DNA from: an uncultured Granulosicoccaceae bacterium
GTDB taxonomy: Bacteria > Pseudomonadota > Gammaproteobacteria > Granulosicoccales > Granulosicoccaceae
DNA length: 36,322 bases
Assembly (NCBI GenBank): GCA_938038175.1
Contig: CALHRQ010000255.1
Location: 1-36,322, forward strand
Direction: 5' to 3'
Shown: positions 13,722 to 30,581 of the stretch, one piece after another
How the letters are laid out: each line of letters opens with the position of its first letter
Numbering within the stretch: the first letter of the stretch is position 1
Program-made: the position numbers and the translations under genes
The notes under the pieces: model-generated
The model's database searches: none
What the model saw: the letters and a program-made list of their open reading frames with translations, nothing else
Told to the model about the DNA's origin: nothing

Positions 13722-14165
13722 TTACCAGCAACGATCTGGTGTCGCAGAAAAAGCACCAGTCACACCTTTGATCTCAGATGAACTAATCGTAAAACTGGCA
13801 CAATCGGTATCATTAGCCTGAACCTCACCTTCCACGGGTGTGGCAGTGAGTAAAAATGATGTTGCTGAATTATTGCTGACACTGACAAAATACAACCCTT
13901 CATCAGATAAAGCGGTAGCATCATCACCGTAGCCAAGCTCTGTCATTGATGTAGCGTAGCGATTGTATTCTGAGAAAAACCGAATCTGCTCACCCGCTGC
14001 TTCTTGCAGAATGACCTTAGCATCGGTACGCCGCGCATTTTCCATGTACGAAGAATACGAAGGCAAAGCAATCGCTGTTATGATTCCAACAATTGCGATA
14101 GCAATTAAAAGTTCGATCAGCGTGAACCCTTGATGTCTATTCCGTTCTGATATGCCATTTTTCAT
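13722..14165 (-). CDS. pilE: Type IV pilin-like protein PilE
   Basis: The 147-residue protein has a short basic leader ending at G13, then [15 protein letters not shown], the type III prepilin signal with Glu at mature position 5, followed by the ARRTDAK stretch of PilE-type minor pilins and a C-terminal Cys pair (one in DTDCASF, one near the end, DRCW). PilD would cleave and N-methylate it, and it would enter the type IV pilus through the inner-membrane assembly platform. It is the last gene of the minor pilin cluster, 79 bp after pilX, a gap too small for the pilY1 gene normally found in between. Confidence 0.9.
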
Positions 14166-14244
14166 CTTTCGTCACTTATTTATTATTTTATAGGTATTTA
14201 AATTTATTACTTATCAAATTAATGACAGGCACAAACCAGAGAAA

Positions 14245-14805
14245 TCAACTTTCAGGCGCAATACAATTGCCCGTAGAGAAGAGTTGTAAACCACTGTATT
14301 CCTCTCTTACTACATGGTCTGACCTTGCATTACTGTTACTGATAGTCGCTACTGACCTCACATCATAAATAAGGCCAACAATATTGGCCGTATCCAGAAC
14401 TGCTGTCAGTGAGGTCTCTGTAGGGGCAACTTCACCACAATACTGAACGCTGACATCTGCCGATATATCCACAGAGGTGCCTAACAAATTTGACTGGCTG
14501 AGCTGCTCCGTTAATTCGCCCGAAGTCATTGGTAACAACAAGGGCGGAGGGTTTTCAAATTCAGACCTGGCTTGATTACGATAGTCAGGATAATCATCTG
14601 AGGCGATCACAGAATTTATTGCAGACTCAGCCGTCTCATAGGTAATTGTTTTTTGCTGTGCATTGCTGCTTACTTTCTCAGCGATGCGCGTTCCGTTTAG
14701 CGCTGTCACACCTAAAGTGGTCATTACTAACATCAGTATAAGACTGATGGCCAGAGCAGCACCACTCTGCGACTGTCGGCTTTTCGTTATTGCCACTTCA
14801 TTCAC
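14245..14805 (-). CDS. pilX: Minor pilin assembly protein PilX
   Basis: The 186-residue protein begins with a basic leader and SGAALAISLILMLVMTTLGV, the PilX N-terminal pattern in which the prepilin cleavage site follows a Gly (about G15) but the Glu at mature +5 is absent. NGTRIAEKVSSNAQQKTITYETAE follows, typical of PilX. In pseudomonads PilX with PilV, PilW and PilE forms the priming complex at the pilus tip. It lies 24 bp after pilW in the same operon. Confidence 0.86.
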   Translation of the reverse strand: MNEVAITKSRQSQSGAALAISLILMLVMTTLGVTALNGTRIAEKVSSNAQQKTITYETAESAINSVIASDDYPDYRNQARSEFENPPPLLLPMTSGELTEQLSQSNLLGTSVDISADVSVQYCGEVAPTETSLTAVLDTANIVGLIYDVRSVATISNSNARSDHVVREEYSGLQLFSTGNCIAPES

Positions 14806-14829
14806 CTGTGGTTAATCTCAAAATATTTC

Positions 14830-15651
14830 CTAACGAGCAATATTAGTTAGCTCGCCATTACGAAGCAGTACGGTTGAACTGAATACGTTTCGCGCAATTC
14901 GATCATTTGTTGTGAACACTCGATCAAGTACGACATGGGTTTCCTCGCCTGATCGCGTTCTAATGCTTTCACCCGAGTTAACCAGCAAGGCGATCCGCAT
15001 AGCCAGTACATCTTGATTGCTGATACTCGGGTTATAAGTTACAAAACGATCAGGCACAGCATCATCGTCTGTATCAAGACCCCACAAAACCCGCATTTGA
15101 TCAACCCCTTCAACAATCGGCATAACTTCATTACCGATATTCCCAGTACAAGTGATGAGCTGATTTGCAGCATCATGCGCATAGGTATTGATAGCTATAC
15201 CGTCGTTCGGTGTTGTGTCACGTCCATTGCAATCAAATTCGCGTTGCATTTGCACCACGATTCTATTTTCACTGCTGGCTGCGATATCGAAAGGATCAAG
15301 CCCGCCAGTGGTCGAGTAGCCGGCCAACCTGATACCTTGTTGCAATACGGCTATGCCATAGCGTCCGTTCTCTTGCATACGCTGCAAGCCCTCGCTAAAA
15401 CGCGACGACCGGGTTGAGCCGAGGTAGGTATTGAAAACGGCACTGATTACAATAAGACCCAGTACCAGCCCAATCATCAGTTCGACCAGAGACAAACCGT
15501 GCTGCCGATTAAGACCAGGCCCATTAATTCGGCTTTTTACATGACGGATATTGCCGCGTTTGGGACCTGTCCGTACTTTGCCGTAGCTTGTGCGGCTTCC
15601 GCCAACAGTATGGGATTTAAGACATACCTTGCCATGATCATGCTGGCTCAT
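14830..15651 (-). CDS. pilW: Minor pilin assembly protein PilW
   Basis: The 273-residue protein carries the class III signal HGLSLVELMIGLVLGLI with cleavage predicted after G52 and Glu at mature +5, then FNTYLGSTRSSRFSEGLQRMQENGRY, the diagnostic PilW stretch, and later a VEGVDQMRVLWG segment. The ATG at 15651 overlaps the pilV stop (ATGA), which argues for it, but it implies a 52-residue basic leader where the other pilins here have 10-26. An internal GTG would shorten the leader. It belongs to the minor pilin operon. Confidence 0.87.
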   Translation of the reverse strand: MSQHDHGKVCLKSHTVGGSRTSYGKVRTGPKRGNIRHVKSRINGPGLNRQHGLSLVELMIGLVLGLIVISAVFNTYLGSTRSSRFSEGLQRMQENGRYGIAVLQQGIRLAGYSTTGGLDPFDIAASSENRIVVQMQREFDCNGRDTTPNDGIAINTYAHDAANQLITCTGNIGNEVMPIVEGVDQMRVLWGLDTDDDAVPDRFVTYNPSISNQDVLAMRIALLVNSGESIRTRSGEETHVVLDRVFTTNDRIARNVFSSTVLLRNGELTNIAR

Positions 15652-16247
15652 GGCTTTAACCTCACCTGCACACGGCGGTTAACAAACTCATCTGAATTGG
15701 TTCTGGCTCGGCCCTCACTCCAGGTTACATTCACCTGATAAACCGAATCAGCCCGGCATGGTGAAGACAGGCAAGCGATATTAATATTGCCATCTGGCAG
15801 AGTACCAAGTACCCCAGTGTTACCGCTGCCATTAGCAACCCCACCACAGGACACTGCATATAAATCAAAAACGGCAAGCTCAGCAGGAGAACAACTTTCA
15901 CCATCAGGCTTTGCAGCTGTTGCCTGACAGTACGGAGCCGGTGGAATCGCACAATTTACTGAGCCAGAATCCATGCCTGCGTAAACCGTGTTAGCAACGG
16001 CGATGGAGTTCATACGAATTCGCGCTGCCATACTCTGTGAAAACAACAACGCTTTGGATCGGTTAAGGCCACCCGTACTGTGCTTCATACCAGTTAATTG
16101 AAGACTTGCCATGCCAAGTACACCAAACGACACCACCACAAGTGCAACCAGCACCTCAATAATGCCGACACCTTTTTGAGCGCGCCTGACTTGACGGAAT
16201 CCGAATCTTCGTACGGCTATGTTAGTTTCCATTGACAATGTGCTCAT
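15648..16247 (-). CDS. pilV: Minor pilin assembly protein PilV
   Basis: The 199-residue protein has a basic leader ending KG at residue 26, then VGIIEVLVALVVVSFGVLG, the PilV pattern (G-x-G-x-x-E-V-L-V-A), then GMASLQLTGMKHS and a run of Cys residues that may form disulfides after export. The start overlaps the fimT end by 4 bp and the stop overlaps the pilW start by 4 bp, so the three are translationally coupled. It takes part in priming of type IV pilus assembly. Confidence 0.87.
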   Translation of the reverse strand: MSTLSMETNIAVRRFGFRQVRRAQKGVGIIEVLVALVVVSFGVLGMASLQLTGMKHSTGGLNRSKALLFSQSMAARIRMNSIAVANTVYAGMDSGSVNCAIPPAPYCQATAAKPDGESCSPAELAVFDLYAVSCGGVANGSGNTGVLGTLPDGNINIACLSSPCRADSVYQVNVTWSEGRARTNSDEFVNRRVQVRLKP

Positions 16248-16795
16248 GGTGCTGTTTTTGTGCTCACACGACCATTGGCAGATACGGTTAACTCTCTAAC
16301 CTGTGAACCATCGGCATAGTCGATTTCAATGACGCCGGATAAAGGTATTCCCGCAACATTCACACTGTTACCAGAATCATTGAAATAGATTTGGTCCTCA
16401 AAGGCAGTATCGGCCGTAACCCTGAAAGCACCACTTAACGCACTGTTACGGTTAATGATTTCTTCAACACCACCAGAATCACGCACACCATTTCCGTTAG
16501 CGTCCACATACACTATCCAGCCGGATTCGTAACCCGCTCCCGGGGCACAAACAGCCTCTTCGATATCAGGGTTTGCACTCACACACAATCCTGTAGGTAA
16601 CAGCCTCTCAACAGCCTCCGATCGAGCCAGCTGTAATGAGAAAACCAGGGAATTGTTTGCGGCAGCTACCTTACTATTAGCCGTGAAACTATCGAATGAA
16701 GGTATTGCGAGGCCGATGATTATTCCAGCAATAGCAATAGTGACAATCAGCTCTAAAGTTGTCAGGCCAGCTTGTTTTATCCGACTAAATTGCAT
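16244..16795 (-). CDS. fimT: GspH/FimT family pseudopilin
   Basis: The 183-residue protein starts with a nine-residue leader and G10, then LTTLELIVTIAIAGIIIGLAIP (Glu at mature +5), followed by LVFSLQLARSEAVERLLP, the helix-strand junction typical of GspH/FimT, and GWIVYVDANGNG in the globular domain. FimT-type minor pilins have been linked to DNA binding in natural transformation in some species. It is the first gene of the fimT-pilV-pilW-pilX-pilE cluster; the promoter is expected in the gap to its right. Confidence 0.88.
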   Translation of the reverse strand: MQFSRIKQAGLTTLELIVTIAIAGIIIGLAIPSFDSFTANSKVAAANNSLVFSLQLARSEAVERLLPTGLCVSANPDIEEAVCAPGAGYESGWIVYVDANGNGVRDSGGVEEIINRNSALSGAFRVTADTAFEDQIYFNDSGNSVNVAGIPLSGVIEIDYADGSQVRELTVSANGRVSTKTAP

Positions 16796-18595: not shown

Positions 18596-19537
18596 ATGCC
18601 TGAGCAGACTCAAAGCAGTTACTATACTGCTAAACGAGGCCAGATGACCTGCTTAGCTGTGATTTCATACCCTGTAAGAGACAAGTTGTCAGCTTTTGTT
18701 TCATTGACAAGGATAAATCGTCCAATTGGTATCTATTTGTTGATGTGGCCCATGCTTTGGGCGTTGTGGTTCGCAGCAAAAGGCGTACCCGATGTAAAAG
18801 TACTTGTTATATTCATACTCGGTACGGTACTCACACGCTCTGCTGGCTGCGCCATCAACGACTATGCCGACAGGCACATAGATGCGCACGTTGAACGCAC
18901 AGCCGGACGCCCACTGGCGACCGGTGCACTAAGCAGCATCGAAGCATTATTACTTGCAGCTGTGCTAATGATGTTGGCATTTCTACTCGTACTATTTACC
19001 AACAAGCTAACTATTTTAATGTCTTTTGTAGCGCTGGCTCTGGCAACTGTATATCCGTTTACCAAACGCATCACCCATTGGCCACAGGCTTTTCTTGGTG
19101 CTGCATTTGCATGCGCTGTACCCATGGCTTTTGCAGCTCAGATTAACAATGTACCCAGCACTGCGTGGGTTATATTCGCCGCCGCCGTTATCTGGGCCAT
19201 GGCCTATGACACCCTATACGCCATGACAGATCGAGCATTTGATTTAAAAATTGGTGTAATGTCCACTGCCATTTTATTTGCGAAGTACGACCTCTTGGCC
19301 GTTGCTGTGCTACAGATCACTATGCTGGCATTGATGTTAGGCGTTGGGTTAAATCAGGGGCGGCAGTGGATTTATCTGAGCGGATTTATTGTTGCTGCTG
19401 CATTAATAATCCGTCAGCTATATCGCTGTAAGACGCGTGACCCTCAACGTTGCTTTGAGGCCTTTTTAAATAATAACTATGTTGGTATGAGTTTATTTAT
19501 TGCCCTCGCACTGGACTTTGCTGTCTTTCCGGCATGA
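18596..19537 (+). CDS. ubiA: 4-hydroxybenzoate polyprenyltransferase
   Basis: The 313-residue integral membrane protein contains the first Asp-rich motif NDYADRHID (88-96) and the second region YDTLYAMTDRAFDLKIG near 200-220, plus LTRINRPIGIYLLMWP early on, all typical of UbiA. It prenylates 4-hydroxybenzoate in the inner membrane in ubiquinone synthesis. The N-terminus is about 25 residues longer than in E. coli, so a later start such as ATG 18644 is possible. The stop overlaps the start of the downstream GTPase gene (ATGA), implying coupled translation. No ubiC is adjacent. Confidence 0.93.
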   Translation: MPEQTQSSYYTAKRGQMTCLAVISYPVRDKLSAFVSLTRINRPIGIYLLMWPMLWALWFAAKGVPDVKVLVIFILGTVLTRSAGCAINDYADRHIDAHVERTAGRPLATGALSSIEALLLAAVLMMLAFLLVLFTNKLTILMSFVALALATVYPFTKRITHWPQAFLGAAFACAVPMAFAAQINNVPSTAWVIFAAAVIWAMAYDTLYAMTDRAFDLKIGVMSTAILFAKYDLLAVAVLQITMLALMLGVGLNQGRQWIYLSGFIVAAALIIRQLYRCKTRDPQRCFEAFLNNNYVGMSLFIALALDFAVFPA

Positions 19538-21294
19538 CCATTAACACACAAGTCAGTGACCTTCTTTCGCGCTATCAACGTGTAGTGCAAACAGGTAATC
19601 AGAACGCAGCTGAGCTTGTTCCAGGCTACAACACTTTACGCCTGGCTAATGCTGCCTTGAATAAAAGTGCACTGGCTGAAAGCGCGCCAGAACACCCGTT
19701 ACAGGTTGTCATTGTCGGCCCAACCCAAGCTGGCAAAAGCACGTTGTGCAACCTGATCACCGATGCAAACCCCGCCGGAATAAGCGCACTCGCAGGTTAC
19801 ACGGTGCATGCCCAGGGCTTTGCTATTGGGGCGCAGATTGCTTCTCTGGAACCACTGCAGGCGTTAATGAAGCCACTACAAAAAGTGAGCATCTCTGAGC
19901 TTGATCATAACGATTTTAATCAATACGTACTCGACACTGTAGAAGCTGGCTCAGCGGCACTGATAGACAACGCGGTTGTCTGGGACTCACCCGATTTCGA
20001 CTCTATAGAATCACAGGGCTATCGTGGTGCCGTACTGCAAACCATCGCCATGGCAGACGTTTTAATTTTCATGGTCAGTAAAGACAAGTACGCCGACAAA
20101 ACCGTATGGGATATGCTTGAACTGGTCGCCAGTTTGGGAAAACCACTGTTTGTGTGTATCAACAAGCTCGACGCCGCCGATGAGGCCACGGTGACTGACT
20201 CATTTAAAAAAAGGTTTCAGGACAATTTCAATACCCCGTTACCGCAACTGGTTGCCTTGCCGTTTATAAAAAACACATCTAAACACAGTAATAGCGATAG
20301 AGATCAGACCATAGCGATTACAGATGCTTCTCGCGACAGTATCAAACTAGCTCTGAGCAATGCGATAGCGCAGGTTGATCGAGAAAATACAAGCCAACTC
20401 ACGCATGCCTTTATTCGCGAGCACTGGCCTTCGTGGATAAAACCACTCAAAGTGGAACTCTCTGCTCAGGAAGATTGGCAGAGCGCTGTTGCCGCAGCAC
20501 TCGAAGATGCTGAGACTCGTTATGTGTCACGTTTTCTGGATAATCCAAACAAGTACGATACCTTCGATAAAGCCATTGCAGAGCTTTTAACCTTGCTGGA
20601 AATACCCGGCATTGCGGGCACGCTTAGTACAGCACGCAGTGTGGTGACTTGGCCAGCACGTAAACTGCTCGGTATTGGTCAAAAGACGTTTGCGCGCGAA
20701 CACGTGCCTGCTGATCAGGAGCAGGAAGTACTCGAATTAATTCTGGAGCAATCACTGACAACACTGCAAGGGCATATTATTGTGGAGCAACAAAATAGTG
20801 ATGACCAGACGATTTGGTGGCAAGCCCTGCAAGCGCAACTTTTAAGAGATAAAAATGAACTAAGCACACGCTTCTCGTCAACGGCGGCGAAGGTTCAAAG
20901 CAGTTTCGAACCTCGCATCGAGGCAACTGCCCAGCAACTCTACAGCCAGTTGAAAGAGCAGCCGGCCTTGCTGAACTCATTGCGCGCAGCCAGGGTGACA
21001 ACCGATGCTGCAGCTGTCGTTATGGCAGTGAAATCAGGTGGCCTTGCACCAGCCGATCTGGTCATTGCACCCGCCATGCTATCAGTAACAACACTGCTAA
21101 CAGAAAGCGTACTGGGTCAGTATATGGAACGCGCCAAAAAGCAGTTAAAAGAAGAGCAGCTTACTGATGTACGAAAACAACTACTGCATGGTGTGCTGGG
21201 TCGGACGCTACACGAGATGAGCATTCAACTCGACAGTGATAACTTGCTCAGCGCGGGCACTGCAATGGATCTGAAACTTGCATCTTACTCTTAG
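19534..21294 (+). CDS. Large dynamin-like P-loop GTPase (first of a pair)
   Basis: The 586-residue protein has a GTPase domain within the first 280 residues: G1 GPTQAGKST at 62-70, G3 DSPDFDS at 151-157, and G4 NKLD at 210-213. About 300 mostly helical residues follow, with a hydrophobic patch at about 490-530 that could insert in a membrane, then a charged end. The arrangement recalls bacterial dynamin-like or stress-related GTPases, but I cannot name a family. It overlaps ubiA by 4 bp. A second GTPase with the same DxPDFDS motif lies at 23374-25020, with a CobT-like gene on the opposite strand between them. The stop is followed by 16-bp repeats. Role unknown; membrane or cell-envelope work is inference. 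Confidence 0.8.
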   Translation: MTINTQVSDLLSRYQRVVQTGNQNAAELVPGYNTLRLANAALNKSALAESAPEHPLQVVIVGPTQAGKSTLCNLITDANPAGISALAGYTVHAQGFAIGAQIASLEPLQALMKPLQKVSISELDHNDFNQYVLDTVEAGSAALIDNAVVWDSPDFDSIESQGYRGAVLQTIAMADVLIFMVSKDKYADKTVWDMLELVASLGKPLFVCINKLDAADEATVTDSFKKRFQDNFNTPLPQLVALPFIKNTSKHSNSDRDQTIAITDASRDSIKLALSNAIAQVDRENTSQLTHAFIREHWPSWIKPLKVELSAQEDWQSAVAAALEDAETRYVSRFLDNPNKYDTFDKAIAELLTLLEIPGIAGTLSTARSVVTWPARKLLGIGQKTFAREHVPADQEQEVLELILEQSLTTLQGHIIVEQQNSDDQTIWWQALQAQLLRDKNELSTRFSSTAAKVQSSFEPRIEATAQQLYSQLKEQPALLNSLRAARVTTDAAAVVMAVKSGGLAPADLVIAPAMLSVTTLLTESVLGQYMERAKKQLKEEQLTDVRKQLLHGVLGRTLHEMSIQLDSDNLLSAGTAMDLKLASYS

Positions 21295-21369
21295 TTCGCC
21301 GAATAACGGGTTGCGATAATGCACAGCGGATTAAATTTCTTTGTTTAATTGAGTACAATCAACTTAGAA

Positions 21370-21417
21370 CTCATTACTGTTACAACCCATTCCTGTTAAA
21401 ACCCATACCCGTTAAAA
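21370..21417. repeat. Three 16-bp tandem repeats (minus-strand unit TTTTAACGGGTATGGG)
   Basis: On the minus strand units at 21402-21417, 21386-21401 and 21370-21385 read TTTTAACGGGTATGGG, TTTTAACAGGAATGGG and TTGTAACAGTAATGAG. They occupy the 147-bp gap between the converging GTPase and cobT-like genes. The unit resembles the 16-bp unit of the array at 26113-26220. Confidence 0.75.
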
Positions 21418-21441
21418 TCCAACAAGTGCAACACCTTTGTA

Positions 21442-23307
21442 TTAAATATTAGCCGCACTCTTAAACAAGTGGCTAAGTTGAGTCAGCATGGCACGTCCAA
21501 GTTTTTTCACATCATAAATTGTGATCGACTTTTGATAATATGCTGAAACATCATGACCAATGCCAATCGCCACCAGCTCAATTTCTTTTTGGCTTTCTAT
21601 TTGTGCGATCACTTGGTGTAAATGCTCAACCAGATAATTCTCGGCATTTTGCGCCATGGTGCTTGTATCAATCGGTGCGCCATCCGAAATCATCATAATA
21701 ACTTTACGTTGCTCTGGCCGCCTGCGGATTCGCTGCTGCGCCCACAACAACGCTTCACCATCAATATTCTGCTTAAGTAAATCGCCACGCAACATTAAAC
21801 CTATGCCTTTTCTGGCATTGCGATACGGGACATCAGCGCTTTTGTATACGATATGACGTAGCCCGTTTAATCGACCAGGGTTTTCAGGTGCACCTTGATC
21901 AATCCATGTCTGCATGGCCTGGCTACCTTGCAATTCAGTTGTGGTGAAACCCAGTATTTCAACACTGACACCACATCGCTCCAGAGTGCGCGCCAGTATG
22001 TCTGTGCAGGCAGCTGCAATAGTGATGGGTTTCCCGAGCATCGATTTCGAATTATCTACGAGCAGGGTTATCGTGGTATCACGAAATTTTTGCTCACTCT
22101 CGGCTTTAAAAGACAAGGCAGATAAAGGCTGAGTAACTACGCGTGTCAGCCGTGAGGTATCAAGATAACCTTCATCAAGATCAAATTGCCAATGGCGTTG
22201 TTGCTGGGCCATAAGAACTCGCTGCAGTCGACCGGATAGCCTCCCTATAAGGGACGAATAGCGCTGTATCTGCTCATCCAGCCGCAAGCGCAATTCGCCC
22301 AGCTGAGCATCATCTGCAAGTTCTCGCGCACTCACAATTTCATCATATTGAGTTGAATACACTTGATAACTGCCACCGGCATAAAGTAAACCGTGCCCCT
22401 CCTCTCCAGCATCAGCGGACACCGGCGCATCACGATTCGGCATTATCGATGCCGATTGATCGGCCGCATCGGCTGCGCTCATAACAGTGTCGCGTTGCTC
22501 TTCAAGCTCTTCTCGCATTATTGTGGCGGCCGCTTCTTCCATCGCCAGCTCGTCGTCTTTGGGAAGAGTATCGGCATCAACATTCAGGACAGCAGCATCA
22601 TCCTGCTCACTGTCATCAGAAAGCAGTTGGTCTACTGTGGGATGCTCAGGTTCACCATCGGAAACGATAGACTGCACATTGATCAAACGAATGATCTCAA
22701 GCGATAACTTTGCGTAAGGTTGCTGGCTCGATGCGAGCTGTGCCAGCTGCTGGAAACGGTTGCCTGTCAGGTTATTGATGTTGTCACGCCAAAGAACCAA
22801 TAATGCACGCACACCAATGGGGGACGGCTCACTTGTGAGTGATTCACGCGTAATACACGCTACAATCAAGGTTAACTGCCGTAGCCCGGATGCTGTACGT
22901 ATAATGTCAGCTGAATGTGTACTGGCATGCAAGTGATCGAGGTTTTGCGCAACACCTGCATAGGAAGTCGCACCAAGAGACTCACAACGCACTTGCTCCA
23001 TTGCGTTAAACAGCTGCTCTTCGCGCCTATCCAACGGTTTGAGTCGCTGATGCAGTTTGCCATCATGGTGTGCAGTAACCAGCGCCAACGCATCACCAAT
23101 ACCGCGCAGCAATGTAATAGGCTGATCTTTCAGGTATGAGCTTGCAATCGTTGCAGACATCCCTAGCGCTTTTGCACAATGGTGATCAGCAAGCTCCGTC
23201 TGCATTGTTGGATTATTGGCAATTGAGCGCATACAGGCCGCATTGCATTGTTTAAAATGTGCTGTTGCCTCAGCGCTATACTTAATTGATTGTTTATTCG
23301 CGTACAT
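21442..23307 (-). CDS. cobT: CobT-like cobaltochelatase-family protein with VWA domain
   Basis: The 621-residue protein matches CobT of the aerobic cobaltochelatase CobN-CobS-CobT in layout: a long N-terminal helical part, an acidic low-complexity centre (about 215-300), then YQVYSTQYDEIVSARELAD, a helical linker, and a C-terminal VWA domain with the metal-ion-dependent adhesion site DNSKS at 418-422, GFTTTE, LRHIVYKSADVPYRN, IDGEALLWA and MMISDGAP. CobT works with the AAA+ subunit CobS to drive cobalt insertion by CobN in vitamin B12 synthesis. Neither CobS nor CobN is in this window, nor any other cobalamin gene, so it may serve as VWA partner of an AAA+ protein for another purpose. It is flanked by two large GTPases on the opposite strand, converging with one and divergent from the other (66 bp). 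Confidence 0.86.
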   Translation of the reverse strand: MYANKQSIKYSAEATAHFKQCNAACMRSIANNPTMQTELADHHCAKALGMSATIASSYLKDQPITLLRGIGDALALVTAHHDGKLHQRLKPLDRREEQLFNAMEQVRCESLGATSYAGVAQNLDHLHASTHSADIIRTASGLRQLTLIVACITRESLTSEPSPIGVRALLVLWRDNINNLTGNRFQQLAQLASSQQPYAKLSLEIIRLINVQSIVSDGEPEHPTVDQLLSDDSEQDDAAVLNVDADTLPKDDELAMEEAAATIMREELEEQRDTVMSAADAADQSASIMPNRDAPVSADAGEEGHGLLYAGGSYQVYSTQYDEIVSARELADDAQLGELRLRLDEQIQRYSSLIGRLSGRLQRVLMAQQQRHWQFDLDEGYLDTSRLTRVVTQPLSALSFKAESEQKFRDTTITLLVDNSKSMLGKPITIAAACTDILARTLERCGVSVEILGFTTTELQGSQAMQTWIDQGAPENPGRLNGLRHIVYKSADVPYRNARKGIGLMLRGDLLKQNIDGEALLWAQQRIRRRPEQRKVIMMISDGAPIDTSTMAQNAENYLVEHLHQVIAQIESQKEIELVAIGIGHDVSAYYQKSITIYDVKKLGRAMLTQLSHLFKSAANI

Positions 23308-23373
23308 CTGCTAATTATCAGTGAATCCTGCTATTTTCGCTAAAGGACTATTTCTAACATTGTTTGAGCCACC

Positions 23374-25020
23374 ATGCCCGAAGCATTAACTCACCTTCAG
23401 CAAAGCCTGAGCCACTGGGCCAATGATGCCCAGCAAGCTGGCTGGCTGAGCCCGAATGCCGCACGAACGCTCGATTCTACTGTGGTTGCCACACCGGGCT
23501 CACTGTTCTCAAAACCCAACAGGCCGCTGGTTGTCGGTTTTTTTGGTGGCACAGGTGTTGGCAAAAGCACTTTACTCAACCGCTTTGCCGGTCAATCAAT
23601 CGCAAAAGCGACAGCAGAACGCCCTACATCGCGCAATATCACCCTGTACATCCATGAGTCTGTTGCGATTGCCCATCTACCTAAAGAGTTTCCCATACAA
23701 CGTATTGAAAAAAACACCCACCAGAATAACCAGTATCGCTCGGTTATGTGGATTGACATGCCAGACTTTGACAGCGTCGAGCAAAGCAATCGTGAGTTGG
23801 TAAATCAATGTTTGCCTCACATTGATGTGGTCATTTATGTCGTCAGTCCCGAACGCTATAAGGACGATCGCGGTTGGCGCCTGCTGTTGGAGCATGGCGA
23901 ACAGCACGCCTGGCTGTTCGCGATAAACCATTGGGATAAGGGAGATGAGAGGCAGAAGGAAGACTTTCTCTCTATGTTGGTAGAGGCCGGCTTTAGTGAC
24001 CCACATTTGTTTTGTACAGACAGTAGTGGGACGGCAAATGGCGGGGATGACTTTGCCACTTTTCAGGAAACAGTCAACACGCTGGCTGACCAACAGTTGG
24101 TTGATCAACTGGAATCGCGTGGCGTGGTTCAACGGTTAAAGCAAATCCGTACCGTGACTGACCAGCTACGCGAAAAGATAGGCAGTGCGGAAGCAGCAGC
24201 GCAATATAAATCGAGCTGGCCCGCGCATTGGCAAGCGGCAGAGTCTGAACTGATTGATTCCAACGAATGGAAAATTGCCAGTATTGCCGAAACCTATGCG
24301 GCCACCGAAACGGGTCTAATGGCAAGTGTTGTTCAACGACTGCGAGGTAAGCCTGCAATGCAGAACCACACTCAGTTGGCCGAATCTCAAAGCCTGGGCA
24401 ATATTACAGATGAAGTTTACTTTGCAAGGATTACCGAATCGGTAGATGACTTCACTCAACGATCCATCGTAAACGGTATTCCAATGCCGGCCGTGAAAAA
24501 AATATTGCACGATACCAAGGAGCGCTTTGTGCAGCGCATTCCTGCCATTGTGGAGCAGTCTGTTCAGCGCTCCATGGCATCGCCTGGCAGTAAGGGACAG
24601 CGATTACTCTATAAAATGCTCAAATCGCTGAGTTGGTTGCTGCCCTTGCTGGCGCTTGGATGGGTCGCTTTCCGCGTAGTTAATGTGTTTCGCCTGGGCG
24701 CTGAAAATCCTGCTGTCTACCTTAGCAGTAACTTTGCAGTGCACAGTTTGCTGCTGGCGGGATTAGCCTGGTTTATTCCCGCATTTTTAGGCTTTCGACT
24801 TAAACCATCACGAGCAAACGCCGCTGCAAGGGGCGCTCGCGATGGCTTGGTACAGGCGAATACCTATATCAGTGAAGAGGTGTCTGCAGGGCTTGATAAA
24901 GTTGCTCGCGATCAAGCTCAGCACTTATCTCAGCTGGATGAGATTCTATCTTCAGGCCTTCAGTTTGATGACAGTGAACTCCCAGAGTCACTGCAGCGCA
25001 TGTTAATCAATGCGCCCTAA
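23374..25020 (+). CDS. Large membrane-anchored P-loop GTPase (second of a pair)
   Basis: The 548-residue protein has G1 GGTGVGKST at 58-66, a likely G2 Thr in RPTSRNIT, G3 DMPDFDS at 128-134 and a G4-like NHWD at 185-188 in which His replaces the usual Lys of NKxD. Two transmembrane segments (about 419-436 and 455-474) follow a helical middle region, and a basic then acidic tail ends the protein, so the GTPase head and tail probably lie on the cytoplasmic face. The G3 motif and neighbourhood link it to the GTPase at 19534-21294. Its start is 66 bp from the divergent cobT-like gene. It overlaps comF at its 3' end by 4 bp. Family resembles dynamin-like or YcjX/Era-type proteins only at motif level. 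Confidence 0.8.
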   Translation: MPEALTHLQQSLSHWANDAQQAGWLSPNAARTLDSTVVATPGSLFSKPNRPLVVGFFGGTGVGKSTLLNRFAGQSIAKATAERPTSRNITLYIHESVAIAHLPKEFPIQRIEKNTHQNNQYRSVMWIDMPDFDSVEQSNRELVNQCLPHIDVVIYVVSPERYKDDRGWRLLLEHGEQHAWLFAINHWDKGDERQKEDFLSMLVEAGFSDPHLFCTDSSGTANGGDDFATFQETVNTLADQQLVDQLESRGVVQRLKQIRTVTDQLREKIGSAEAAAQYKSSWPAHWQAAESELIDSNEWKIASIAETYAATETGLMASVVQRLRGKPAMQNHTQLAESQSLGNITDEVYFARITESVDDFTQRSIVNGIPMPAVKKILHDTKERFVQRIPAIVEQSVQRSMASPGSKGQRLLYKMLKSLSWLLPLLALGWVAFRVVNVFRLGAENPAVYLSSNFAVHSLLLAGLAWFIPAFLGFRLKPSRANAAARGARDGLVQANTYISEEVSAGLDKVARDQAQHLSQLDEILSSGLQFDDSELPESLQRMLINAP

Positions 25021-25811
25021 GATGCAACGCTCCCCAATGGTGTTCTGGCAACAGCCCACAGTTGAAGCTGGGCAACCTGGGTGTCCAATAGCTCCCGCGC
25101 CAACTCCTGAGTGGTTGCTCCAGTTGTAAGAACATCATCAACAACGGCAACACGTTTGTTGAACAATTGCTCAGACGCCTGAAAAACCCCAGTGACCGTT
25201 TGAATGCGCTCCGCGCGAGACAAGCCAGCCAGTGCCTCGGTTTCCTCCACTCTGCTTACAAGATTAGCTTTAACCGGAATATCCAAAGCCCGCCCACACC
25301 AAAACGCAATTTCTTCGGTGTGATTGAACCCACGTTCCATCCTGCGACGCAGATGTAATGGTACTGGTATAAGTACCTCTGGCCAATCATCGATACTCGG
25401 TAGCATTCGCCGAACATGACCAGCCAGTAACAAGCCCAGTAAACGACCACTGGGCAAATGAGATCGATATTTTAATTTTTTTATGAGCAGATCGACAGGT
25501 GGGTCGAATGAGTATGGTATTAACGTATGCGCATAAGGCGATGAAAATATGCCGCACTCTGCACATTTATCATCGGAAAAATCGATATCCAGCGAATGTC
25601 CGCACTGCATGCACAACTTTCTATGGAAGCGAAAGCCTTTCTCAGCGTATAGGACCGGAAAGCAGCAATGACAAAATCGGCATAGATCAATGTTTGATTC
25701 ACTCCGGCTGTGACAAAAACAACAATAGTGGGGGAAACGAGAGGCAATATATTGCATTATTTGACTTACAGTCCGCAGTCCTTGCGCACAGCCCATGAGT
25801 TTTTCCTTCAC
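25017..25811 (-). CDS. comF: ComF family phosphoribosyltransferase-like protein
   Basis: The 264-residue protein has an N-terminal Cys-rich zinc region (Cys at 30, 31, 33, 44, 47, 49, 50, 67, 70, 83, 86) and a C-terminal PRTase domain with the PRPP loop VAVVDDVLTTGAT at about 221-233, preceded by IPVPLHLRRRMERGFNHTEEIA, the ComF signature. ComF is needed for natural transformation in several bacteria, and its neighbours on the other strand are unrelated. Together with the fimT-pilVWXE cluster it is compatible with competence, but competence is not shown. The start is an ATG at 25811; a start five codons in is also possible. Confidence 0.9.
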   Translation of the reverse strand: MKEKLMGCAQGLRTVSQIMQYIASRFPHYCCFCHSRSESNIDLCRFCHCCFPVLYAEKGFRFHRKLCMQCGHSLDIDFSDDKCAECGIFSSPYAHTLIPYSFDPPVDLLIKKLKYRSHLPSGRLLGLLLAGHVRRMLPSIDDWPEVLIPVPLHLRRRMERGFNHTEEIAFWCGRALDIPVKANLVSRVEETEALAGLSRAERIQTVTGVFQASEQLFNKRVAVVDDVLTTGATTQELARELLDTQVAQLQLWAVARTPLGSVAS

Positions 25812-28589: not shown

Positions 28590-30581
28590 CTACCTGAACA
28601 ACACGTCAACTTGATTGACAATGTAATCAAAATCCGGATTATAGGTAGAGCGGGCAACTGGCACACCATCCGGCGATTCGGTACCTTGTGCGCCAAACCA
28701 GTGGCCCCCGGGGTGATAAAGGCATGTGCTAAATGTCTTCCAATCATTACCATTACAAACCTTTATTGCACCACCTGCCCCAAATAATGGATTAGTAGGT
28801 GAAATCAATACGCTTTGGTGAGATTGGTTTAATACACGCAGTGTAGGAAAATATCCATTTCGGTATTCGACCTGCTCACTCGACTGCCCTGTCTTTTCAT
28901 TGTCATAGATAATCATTTTTCTATTTCCACTGAAACGCTTGTCAAACACTTTTTCCATGTAAGCGATACTCAAAACTGAGTCTTTACTGGCAGCGACCAT
29001 CAATACAGGTACATCTATTGGTTTTTTAGGCCATTTTTTTTTCAATTTGCGTGTGGTTTTATAATATTGGGATGCACTGTTAATCGGTATCGAATTGTAT
29101 TTCGTTGGATTGTCTTCAATGATCATATTTCCAAAAACCCAAGGCTGGAACCTTGAATAAATTCCAGCCCAGCGCAACAAATGATCTCTGGTACTTTTAT
29201 AGGCTGGTGAAAACAATAATAAGCCATCAACAGGATCAGACTCGATAGCCAACAGTGTTGCTATTACACCACCAAGCGAAAAGCCTCCTAAATAAAAAGG
29301 CTTATCCGGTTCACGATATAAAGCTAAATGCTGACGCGCAGCTGTAAGCCATAGCTTATAAGACATTTTTAGTTGTGCTTTTGGGGTGTTTCCATGCCCA
29401 GGCAACAAAATAACTCTTACATCAAAACCAAGCTTTGACAGCTCATCTGCCATATCACGCCATACATAAGGCGAATCGTTGAGCCCATGTATGAGCAAAA
29501 ATTTACCTCTATAGTTTGCAACTGGGTTAGCTGCAAGTTCAAACGGTAAATTGTACTGAACATCTTCAGCGCTGCGCTGGGGCATTTGCGTTGCAAGCAA
29601 ATGAGTCTTTAGTTTATTAACGTGCGAATCAAAATTAATTTCTGGAGCAGGGAACTGTCGATACACTGTTTGTGCATCTGCTTTTGTGACTTTGAATGGC
29701 AGCAGCAGCAGAACAACGCTGAGTGCTATTGTACCAACACCAATATACTCGCGACGAGTAATAACTTCTTTAAAAAATAGCGTAGTAATCAACACGGTGA
29801 ATATGAACTCTATTTGGCCAAGAGATTTTACAAGTGCTGGATCCTGGTATGTCATTGCAGTAAACCATCCTACAGAACCTAACGCACTGGTCGCACCAAC
29901 AAACGTTGCCAGCGACTTACGCTGGCGAATCAATGATATTTGTCCAGGCTCTTTAACAACACTGTACACAACGCAAATACAGGATTGAAGACTGACCATG
30001 ACAAACAGTGTTACAGCCGCACTTTGGACAACACCAAACTCTAAACTCAGGCTTGCCTCCCGTAGCCATAATGAGGTTAATGCAAAAGCACATCCTGAAA
30101 GTGTACCAAACAATACATTTAAGGGCTCCCACTTCAATTTTTTCTCTGGAACACTGACTATCAGAATTCCGATCACACCTAACAGCACGGCTAACCAACC
30201 TAAGACATTCAGCTGTGACCCAAAAAATAGTGCACCAAATGCAGCAGCCTGGATAGCTTCTGTTTTAGCAAAGCCAGTACCCACTGCAAAATTTCTGAAG
30301 TTGAACGTTTTTATCAATAAGTAAGTAGCGAGAATTTGCGCAATACCAGCCATTATTGCAAATGTGATGAAGCGAGATTGCTGTAACGCGTGCAGCAAAG
30401 CAGCCTGTAGATCTTCTCTTGTAACAAGGTATAAATAAATGAGCGCAAATGGCCATCCAAACACATAGCGCACCATAGTCGAACTCATGGGTGAAAGACT
30501 ACTGGTAAGCTGCTTTTGGCCTGCTGTGCGTATTGCCTGCATTACTGCTGCAAACAGAGTAAAAAGAATCCAACTACTCAC
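28590..30581 (-). CDS. Fusion of EamA/DMT transporter with alpha/beta hydrolase
   Basis: A single 663-residue frame. Residues 1 to about 297 form two EamA halves with about ten membrane segments (the second half starts near 155). Residues from about 310 form an alpha/beta hydrolase: LLIHGLND near 362-369 for the oxyanion region, nucleophile elbow GFSLGG with S435, D534 in VAASKDSV and H588 in NQSHQSV as a plausible catalytic triad. It resembles monoacylglycerol lipase/serine aminopeptidase_S33-type esterases. The hydrolase would be cytoplasmic if ten segments and the usual N-in/C-in DMT topology hold. The junction LLLLPFKVTKADAQT has a look of a cleavable signal, which is an alternative reading. 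No stop or frameshift separates the parts. Substrate unknown; coupling of transport and ester or amide hydrolysis is inference. Confidence 0.85.
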   Translation of the reverse strand: MSSWILFTLFAAVMQAIRTAGQKQLTSSLSPMSSTMVRYVFGWPFALIYLYLVTREDLQAALLHALQQSRFITFAIMAGIAQILATYLLIKTFNFRNFAVGTGFAKTEAIQAAAFGALFFGSQLNVLGWLAVLLGVIGILIVSVPEKKLKWEPLNVLFGTLSGCAFALTSLWLREASLSLEFGVVQSAAVTLFVMVSLQSCICVVYSVVKEPGQISLIRQRKSLATFVGATSALGSVGWFTAMTYQDPALVKSLGQIEFIFTVLITTLFFKEVITRREYIGVGTIALSVVLLLLPFKVTKADAQTVYRQFPAPEINFDSHVNKLKTHLLATQMPQRSAEDVQYNLPFELAANPVANYRGKFLLIHGLNDSPYVWRDMADELSKLGFDVRVILLPGHGNTPKAQLKMSYKLWLTAARQHLALYREPDKPFYLGGFSLGGVIATLLAIESDPVDGLLLFSPAYKSTRDHLLRWAGIYSRFQPWVFGNMIIEDNPTKYNSIPINSASQYYKTTRKLKKKWPKKPIDVPVLMVAASKDSVLSIAYMEKVFDKRFSGNRKMIIYDNEKTGQSSEQVEYRNGYFPTLRVLNQSHQSVLISPTNPLFGAGGAIKVCNGNDWKTFSTCLYHPGGHWFGAQGTESPDGVPVARSTYNPDFDYIVNQVDVLFR

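Follow-up and report, generated by a model that had tools for sequence, protein, structure and literature searches.

A gene for a CobT-like VWA protein, read on the opposite strand, separates two large GTPase genes of an uncultured Granulosicoccaceae bacterium, with no other cobaltochelatase gene in view. The question raised by this locus is whether the three products work together or whether the CobT gene is a stranger between two partners. The original prediction took the trio for a GTPase-driven membrane machine that employs CobT outside B12 synthesis. The window, i.e. the whole stretch of DNA analyzed here (36,322 nt), belongs to a 3.25 Mb draft assembly that is 64% complete; it was compared with a family set of 48 genomes, 27 of which represent the window's own genus.

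A dynamin-like GTPase pair

The locus starts with ubiA (18596..19537, plus strand; TIGR01474 above the cut-off), which overlaps the gene of GTPase A (19534..21294, plus strand; 586 aa) by 4 nt. The cobT gene (21442..23307, minus strand; 621 aa) follows, then the gene of GTPase B (23374..25020, plus strand; 548 aa) and a ComF/GntX-like gene (25017..25811, minus strand) that is a conserved neighbor after B. All three central genes are genuine, judging by ORF calls and domain matches, and the position of ubiA upstream of A is common to relatives with and without CobT. A consensus scan of the cobT-B region for promoters and terminators returned nothing above chance. Elsewhere in the window, five consecutive minus-strand genes (13722-16795), several of them with type IV pilin-like N-termini, look by eye like a minor pilin cluster, which several congeners have in the corresponding position. 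Further downstream, a 663-aa ORF (28590-30581, minus strand) combines an EamA-type transporter region with an alpha/beta hydrolase; this region consists of two ORFs in the loci L037 and L040, so that the long ORF is either a fusion or an assembly effect.

The two GTPases are related to each other (hhalign probability of 99.6 over 344 columns). The G3 motif D-x-P-D-F-D-S that had been proposed as their common feature is found in both, as WDSPDFDS in A and DMPDFDS in B; in the alignments of 27 homologues of each protein, its residues D, P, D, D and S are invariant, and the F position varies among the B homologues. B passes the Dynamin_N cut-off of 27 bits with a score of 28.8, whereas A stays below it with 14.4 and matches MMR_HSR1 at 7.8e-9.

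The AlphaFold2 models (mean pLDDT of 83.1 for A and 84.5 for B) place both proteins close to dynamins. In structure comparison, B matches Fzo1 best (Z of 23.4, 287 residues, 3.2 Å), followed by mitofusin and EHD proteins, and its top Foldseek matches are BDLP, IniA and the Campylobacter DLP pair. The structural matches of A, less certain than those of B, comprise BDLP (1.9e-7 by Foldseek, with a low TM-score), Drp1, the Campylobacter DLP pair and Fzo1 (Z of 17.8, 292 residues, 5.5 Å). For both proteins, the TM-scores against full-length dynamins are low, which may mean that the hinges are in different states or that the match is loose. On the strength of the models, B is firmly assigned to the dynamin superfamily, as a mitofusin/BDLP-like member, and A is assigned to it with fair confidence, its predicted architecture being a G domain with a long helical stalk and a hydrophobic patch.

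The hydrophobic patch of one GTPase and, as two hydrophobic helices, the putative membrane segments of the other, both part of the original prediction, are seen in the sequences and the models alike. B carries a C-terminal hydrophobic hairpin, predicted to enter the membrane, whose two helices (24619..24798, plus strand; residues about 416-442 and 452-475) are seen in the sequence and in the model. The hydrophobic region of A (20962..21105, plus strand; residues 477-524) is nearly invariant in the alignment of 27 sequences and is modeled as two helices, 477-501 and 507-524, with low confidence near the turn; it may serve at the membrane and is a candidate membrane-binding tip. By analogy with other bacterial dynamin pairs, A and B would act together as a heterotypic GTPase that tethers or remodels membranes, anchored by the hairpin of B. 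Bacterial dynamins are mostly encoded as operon pairs (PMC6104087), and A and B fit this pattern. The membrane part of the proposed machine is thus supported in that the GTPases resemble a dynamin-like pair; the inclusion of CobT is not supported, as the gene neighborhoods indicate.

The junction between the two GTPase genes

A and B are present, essentially in single copy, in all 48 family genomes. Outside the window's genus, they make up a compact two-gene unit: in all 21 family genomes of other genera, A adjoins B on the same strand, at a distance of 35-238 nt by profile coordinates, with no CobT between them. In a class sample of 369 gammaproteobacterial genomes, 27 encode B. A lies directly beside B in 19 of the 20 loci inspected, including L107 from the window's own family; in other gammaproteobacterial families, the two genes are adjacent without CobT in 18 readable loci, a count that leaves out L112, where the ORF calls gave no clear A/B arrangement. 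The two genes overlap by exactly 4 nt in at least nine mapped loci, and the gor-ubiA-A-B-comF surroundings known from the window recur, again without CobT, in several (among them those of G047, G046, G002, G005, G015, G006 and G001). It follows that the GTPase pair needs no CobT. In a phylum-wide sample of 398 genomes, the sole match of the B profile is the window's own genome, so that the pair seems to be limited to some gammaproteobacterial lineages, as far as a sample rather than a census can tell.

Within the genus, the orphan CobT is found in 22 of the 27 genomes. It shares a contig with B and is divergent to it in 20 of these; in G035, the CobT contig carries a 60-residue piece of B just beyond CobT. 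Hence the divergent order is seen in 21 of the 21 genomes in which it can be assessed. The position of A is far more variable. It lies within 5 kb of CobT-B in 14 genomes and lies elsewhere in five (27 kb away in G020 and 184 kb away in G043; the other three are G044, G045 and G029, the last judged from the gene map); it is not assessable in G026, G035 and G037. The expectation that the trio would be conserved as neighbors in relatives accordingly fails outside the genus and in part inside it, where the divergent CobT-B order still stands in all 21 assessable genomes.

In the remaining five congeners (G021, G023, G030, G031 and G039), the orphan CobT was not found, and A and B are kept. A gene for a peroxiredoxin-like redoxin (PF08534) is the only one between A and B in three of these five genomes, and it accompanies CobT at the junction in many other congeners (examples of the redoxin gene are L133:5157-5642, L134:5478-5960, L135:4971-5474 and L055:9755-10270). 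A and B of G021 are some 10 kb apart, the space being filled by unrelated genes with no CobT among them (L132:4700-14700). Overall, the A/B junction behaves as an insertion-prone site.

An orphan CobT in a family that rarely encodes CobN

The protein between the GTPases is a CobT over its full length, as had been suspected: it combines PF06213 with PF11775 and matches the solved CobT chain 9uka_G from end to end (1e-144). Its TIGR01651 score, 566.3 bits, is below the equivalog cut-off of 759.05. In the maximum-likelihood tree, it belongs to a clade of 32 rows (support 100/99) that stands apart from the CobT paired with CobS in these genomes, and the locus maps place no CobS beside any of the 32. 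In the genus g5, CobT of this clade sits elsewhere, with no GTPases nearby. The MIDAS of the VWA domain (DxSxS, here DNSKS; 22042..22056, minus strand; residues 418-422) is intact, all five MIDAS residues being identical in 29 of 29 orphan and 16 of 16 paired CobT sequences. Five other positions are fixed differently in the two groups, and three of these (459, 460 and 548) follow the MIDAS residues in the sequence; as a reading of the alignment, the differences near the MIDAS may mark a changed client face. A third, deeply diverged CobT type of about 580 aa occurs beside a second CobS in some family genomes (L065, L067, L069 and L070).

Two other readings were considered and set aside. A phage source of the window CobT is not backed by its PHROG matches, which are partial and far weaker than that to TIGR01651, and a role in defense finds only weak LeoA/LeoBC matches of the GTPases in PADLOC (3e-5 or weaker, mostly in the G domain) and none of CobT.

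Profile searches detected neither CobS nor CobN in the window, in line with the original prediction, nor in the rest of the assembly, and CbiC/CobH was likewise not detected in this genome; at 64% completeness, these absences prove little by themselves. In the relatives, CobS, suggested in the original prediction as a possible AAA+ partner encoded elsewhere, occurs in 44 of the 48 family genomes and in 27 of the 28 high-quality ones, compared with only 16 of the 369 genomes in the class sample, and most relatives carry a CobS-CobT pair at a separate locus. At the CobS-CobT locus, the neighboring genes (for example EF-G-like, sulfate permease, SHMT and MatE) vary from genome to genome and yield no functional clue.

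PF02514, the domain shared by CobN and BchH, is found in 15 of the 48 family genomes. The two proteins were split by score bands (about 1324-1331 bits for CobN, about 1050-1110 bits for BchH) that are anchored by NCBIfam-type checks of two high-band CobN and two low-band BchH, the rest being assigned by band. By this measure, true CobN is present in about six of the 48 (G020, G026, G043, G044, G045 and G047) and BchH-type proteins in about nine or ten. CobN appears to be absent from about 23 of the 27 high-quality genomes with CobS and from 13 of the 17 high-quality genomes with the orphan clade, and CbiC/CobH is found in three of the 48 (G020, G026 and G035). Since most members of the genus lack the tested B12-synthesis genes, the extra cobT copy probably has another job, which agrees with the proposal of an orphan CobT outside B12 synthesis.

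A similar picture emerges from kelp-associated Granulosicoccus MAGs, where cobS and cobT were found in eight of eight genomes and credited with aerobic cobalt insertion, and corrin-ring genes in one of the eight (PMC9238374). Because nearly all members of the family retain CobS and CobT and CobN and CbiC are rare, cobS plus cobT alone is a poor marker of B12 supply. The retention of CobST without CobN, on which no report was found among open-licence papers, points to a second use of the CobST motor.

Competing explanations and known systems

The preferred explanation, to which we assign a probability of about 0.6, is that the dynamin pair is of a known kind and that a duplicated CobT, likely an alternative client adaptor for a shared CobS motor, has come between its genes. 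The ancestor would have had A and B as a dynamin-like operon of two genes behind ubiA, and in the window's genus a cobT paralog would have entered between them on the opposite strand; parsimony favors this direction of change over a loss of CobT elsewhere. The orphan CobT would act as a VWA adaptor and bind, through its MIDAS, some client that is not CobN; it would borrow the AAA+ CobS motor from another locus to remodel or metallate this non-corrin client. The model draws by analogy on NorQ/NorD, where the client, but not the motor, requires the MIDAS for its interaction (PMC9976466). The co-occurrence of CobS with the orphan CobT is uninformative here, CobS being nearly universal in the family.

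This explanation claims no link between CobT and the GTPases and is therefore compatible with a passive insertion, in which the paralog landed at the junction by chance and its place beside B was simply inherited. The odds of that are roughly even: other inserts (a redoxin gene, or some 10 kb of further genes) are found at the junction in some genomes, cobT forms no operon with the GTPase genes given its opposite strand, and the same clade is located elsewhere in g5. The divergent CobT-B order, however, persists in 21 of 21 genomes even though A has left in five, a constancy beyond what frequent rearrangement at the site would lead one to expect. This persistence, together with the 14 genomes that have A within 5 kb, is also what speaks for a single membrane machine of three parts, in which CobT would link an AAA+ motor with both GTPases. 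Such a machine is nevertheless unlikely, because A and B do without an intervening CobT in every other genus of the family as well as outside the family, the five congeners without this CobT retain both GTPases, redoxin fills the same junction, A is no longer a neighbor in another five, and in g5 the orphan clade has no GTPases nearby. The strict CobT-B neighborhood could still reflect a functional link to B, beyond what the preferred explanation covers. B as a client of the orphan CobT is a speculative idea, and it would be a long shot that the orphan CobT and the shared CobS motor disassemble or activate dynamin B, i.e. that a bacterial dynamin is under the control of an AAA+/VWA motor of the chelatase type.

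The remaining candidates concern chelatases. Full-length similarity and an intact MIDAS are what an ordinary cobaltochelatase subunit, working in B12 synthesis with CobN and CobS encoded elsewhere in the genome, would display, and CobN and CbiC do occur in a small number of congeners, G020 and G026 among them. That role is improbable, even more so than the three-part machine, in view of the 13 of 17 high-quality orphan-clade genomes that lack CobN by score band, the scarcity of CbiC (3 of 48), the CobS-linked CobT already available in the relatives and the score below the TIGR01651 cut-off. The least probable candidate is a service to magnesium chelatase (BchH) in phototrophic members of the family: the BchH-type proteins noted above would provide a partner, but the high-quality orphan-CobT genomes G022, G032, G034 and G015 have neither CobN nor BchH. 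Two points of interest remain: CobST is retained across the family without CobN, and CobT keeps strictly to its place beside B.

Among known systems, the orphan CobT is closest to the CobT of the aerobic cobaltochelatase CobNST (9uka), with the same domain order, full-length similarity and MIDAS; it differs in forming a separate clade, in having no adjoining CobS, in its sub-equivalog score and in that most relatives lack CobN and corrin genes. Virus-encoded cobST of cyanophages and haloarchaeal tailed viruses likewise combine cobS and cobT without a full B12 pathway (PMC8651126), whereas here both genes are chromosomal, the surroundings of the orphan CobT are not viral and the PHROG similarity is partial. 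The proposed mode of action resembles that of the MoxR AAA+/VWA pairs (NorQ/NorD, RavA/ViaA and CbbQ/CbbO), in that a VWA MIDAS would bind the client and an AAA+ ring would remodel it; unlike these pairs, CobS and CobT make up a family of their own, and the genes of the motor and the orphan adaptor lie apart.

The GTPases, in turn, resemble in their models the paired bacterial dynamins, such as Campylobacter Cj-DLP1/2, Streptomyces DynA/DynB, Nostoc BDLP and mycobacterial IniA, in having a G domain, a helical stalk and a putative membrane tip. As in bacterial dynamin pairs (PMC6104087), two unequal partners are encoded side by side, an arrangement seen in the relatives. The sequence identity of A and B to the solved members is low, and B is closest to mitofusin/Fzo1. 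Unlike in other dynamin pairs, the A-B operon is interrupted by cobT in the window and its genus, and the split pair is a natural case that tests whether bacterial dynamin pairs must stay coupled.
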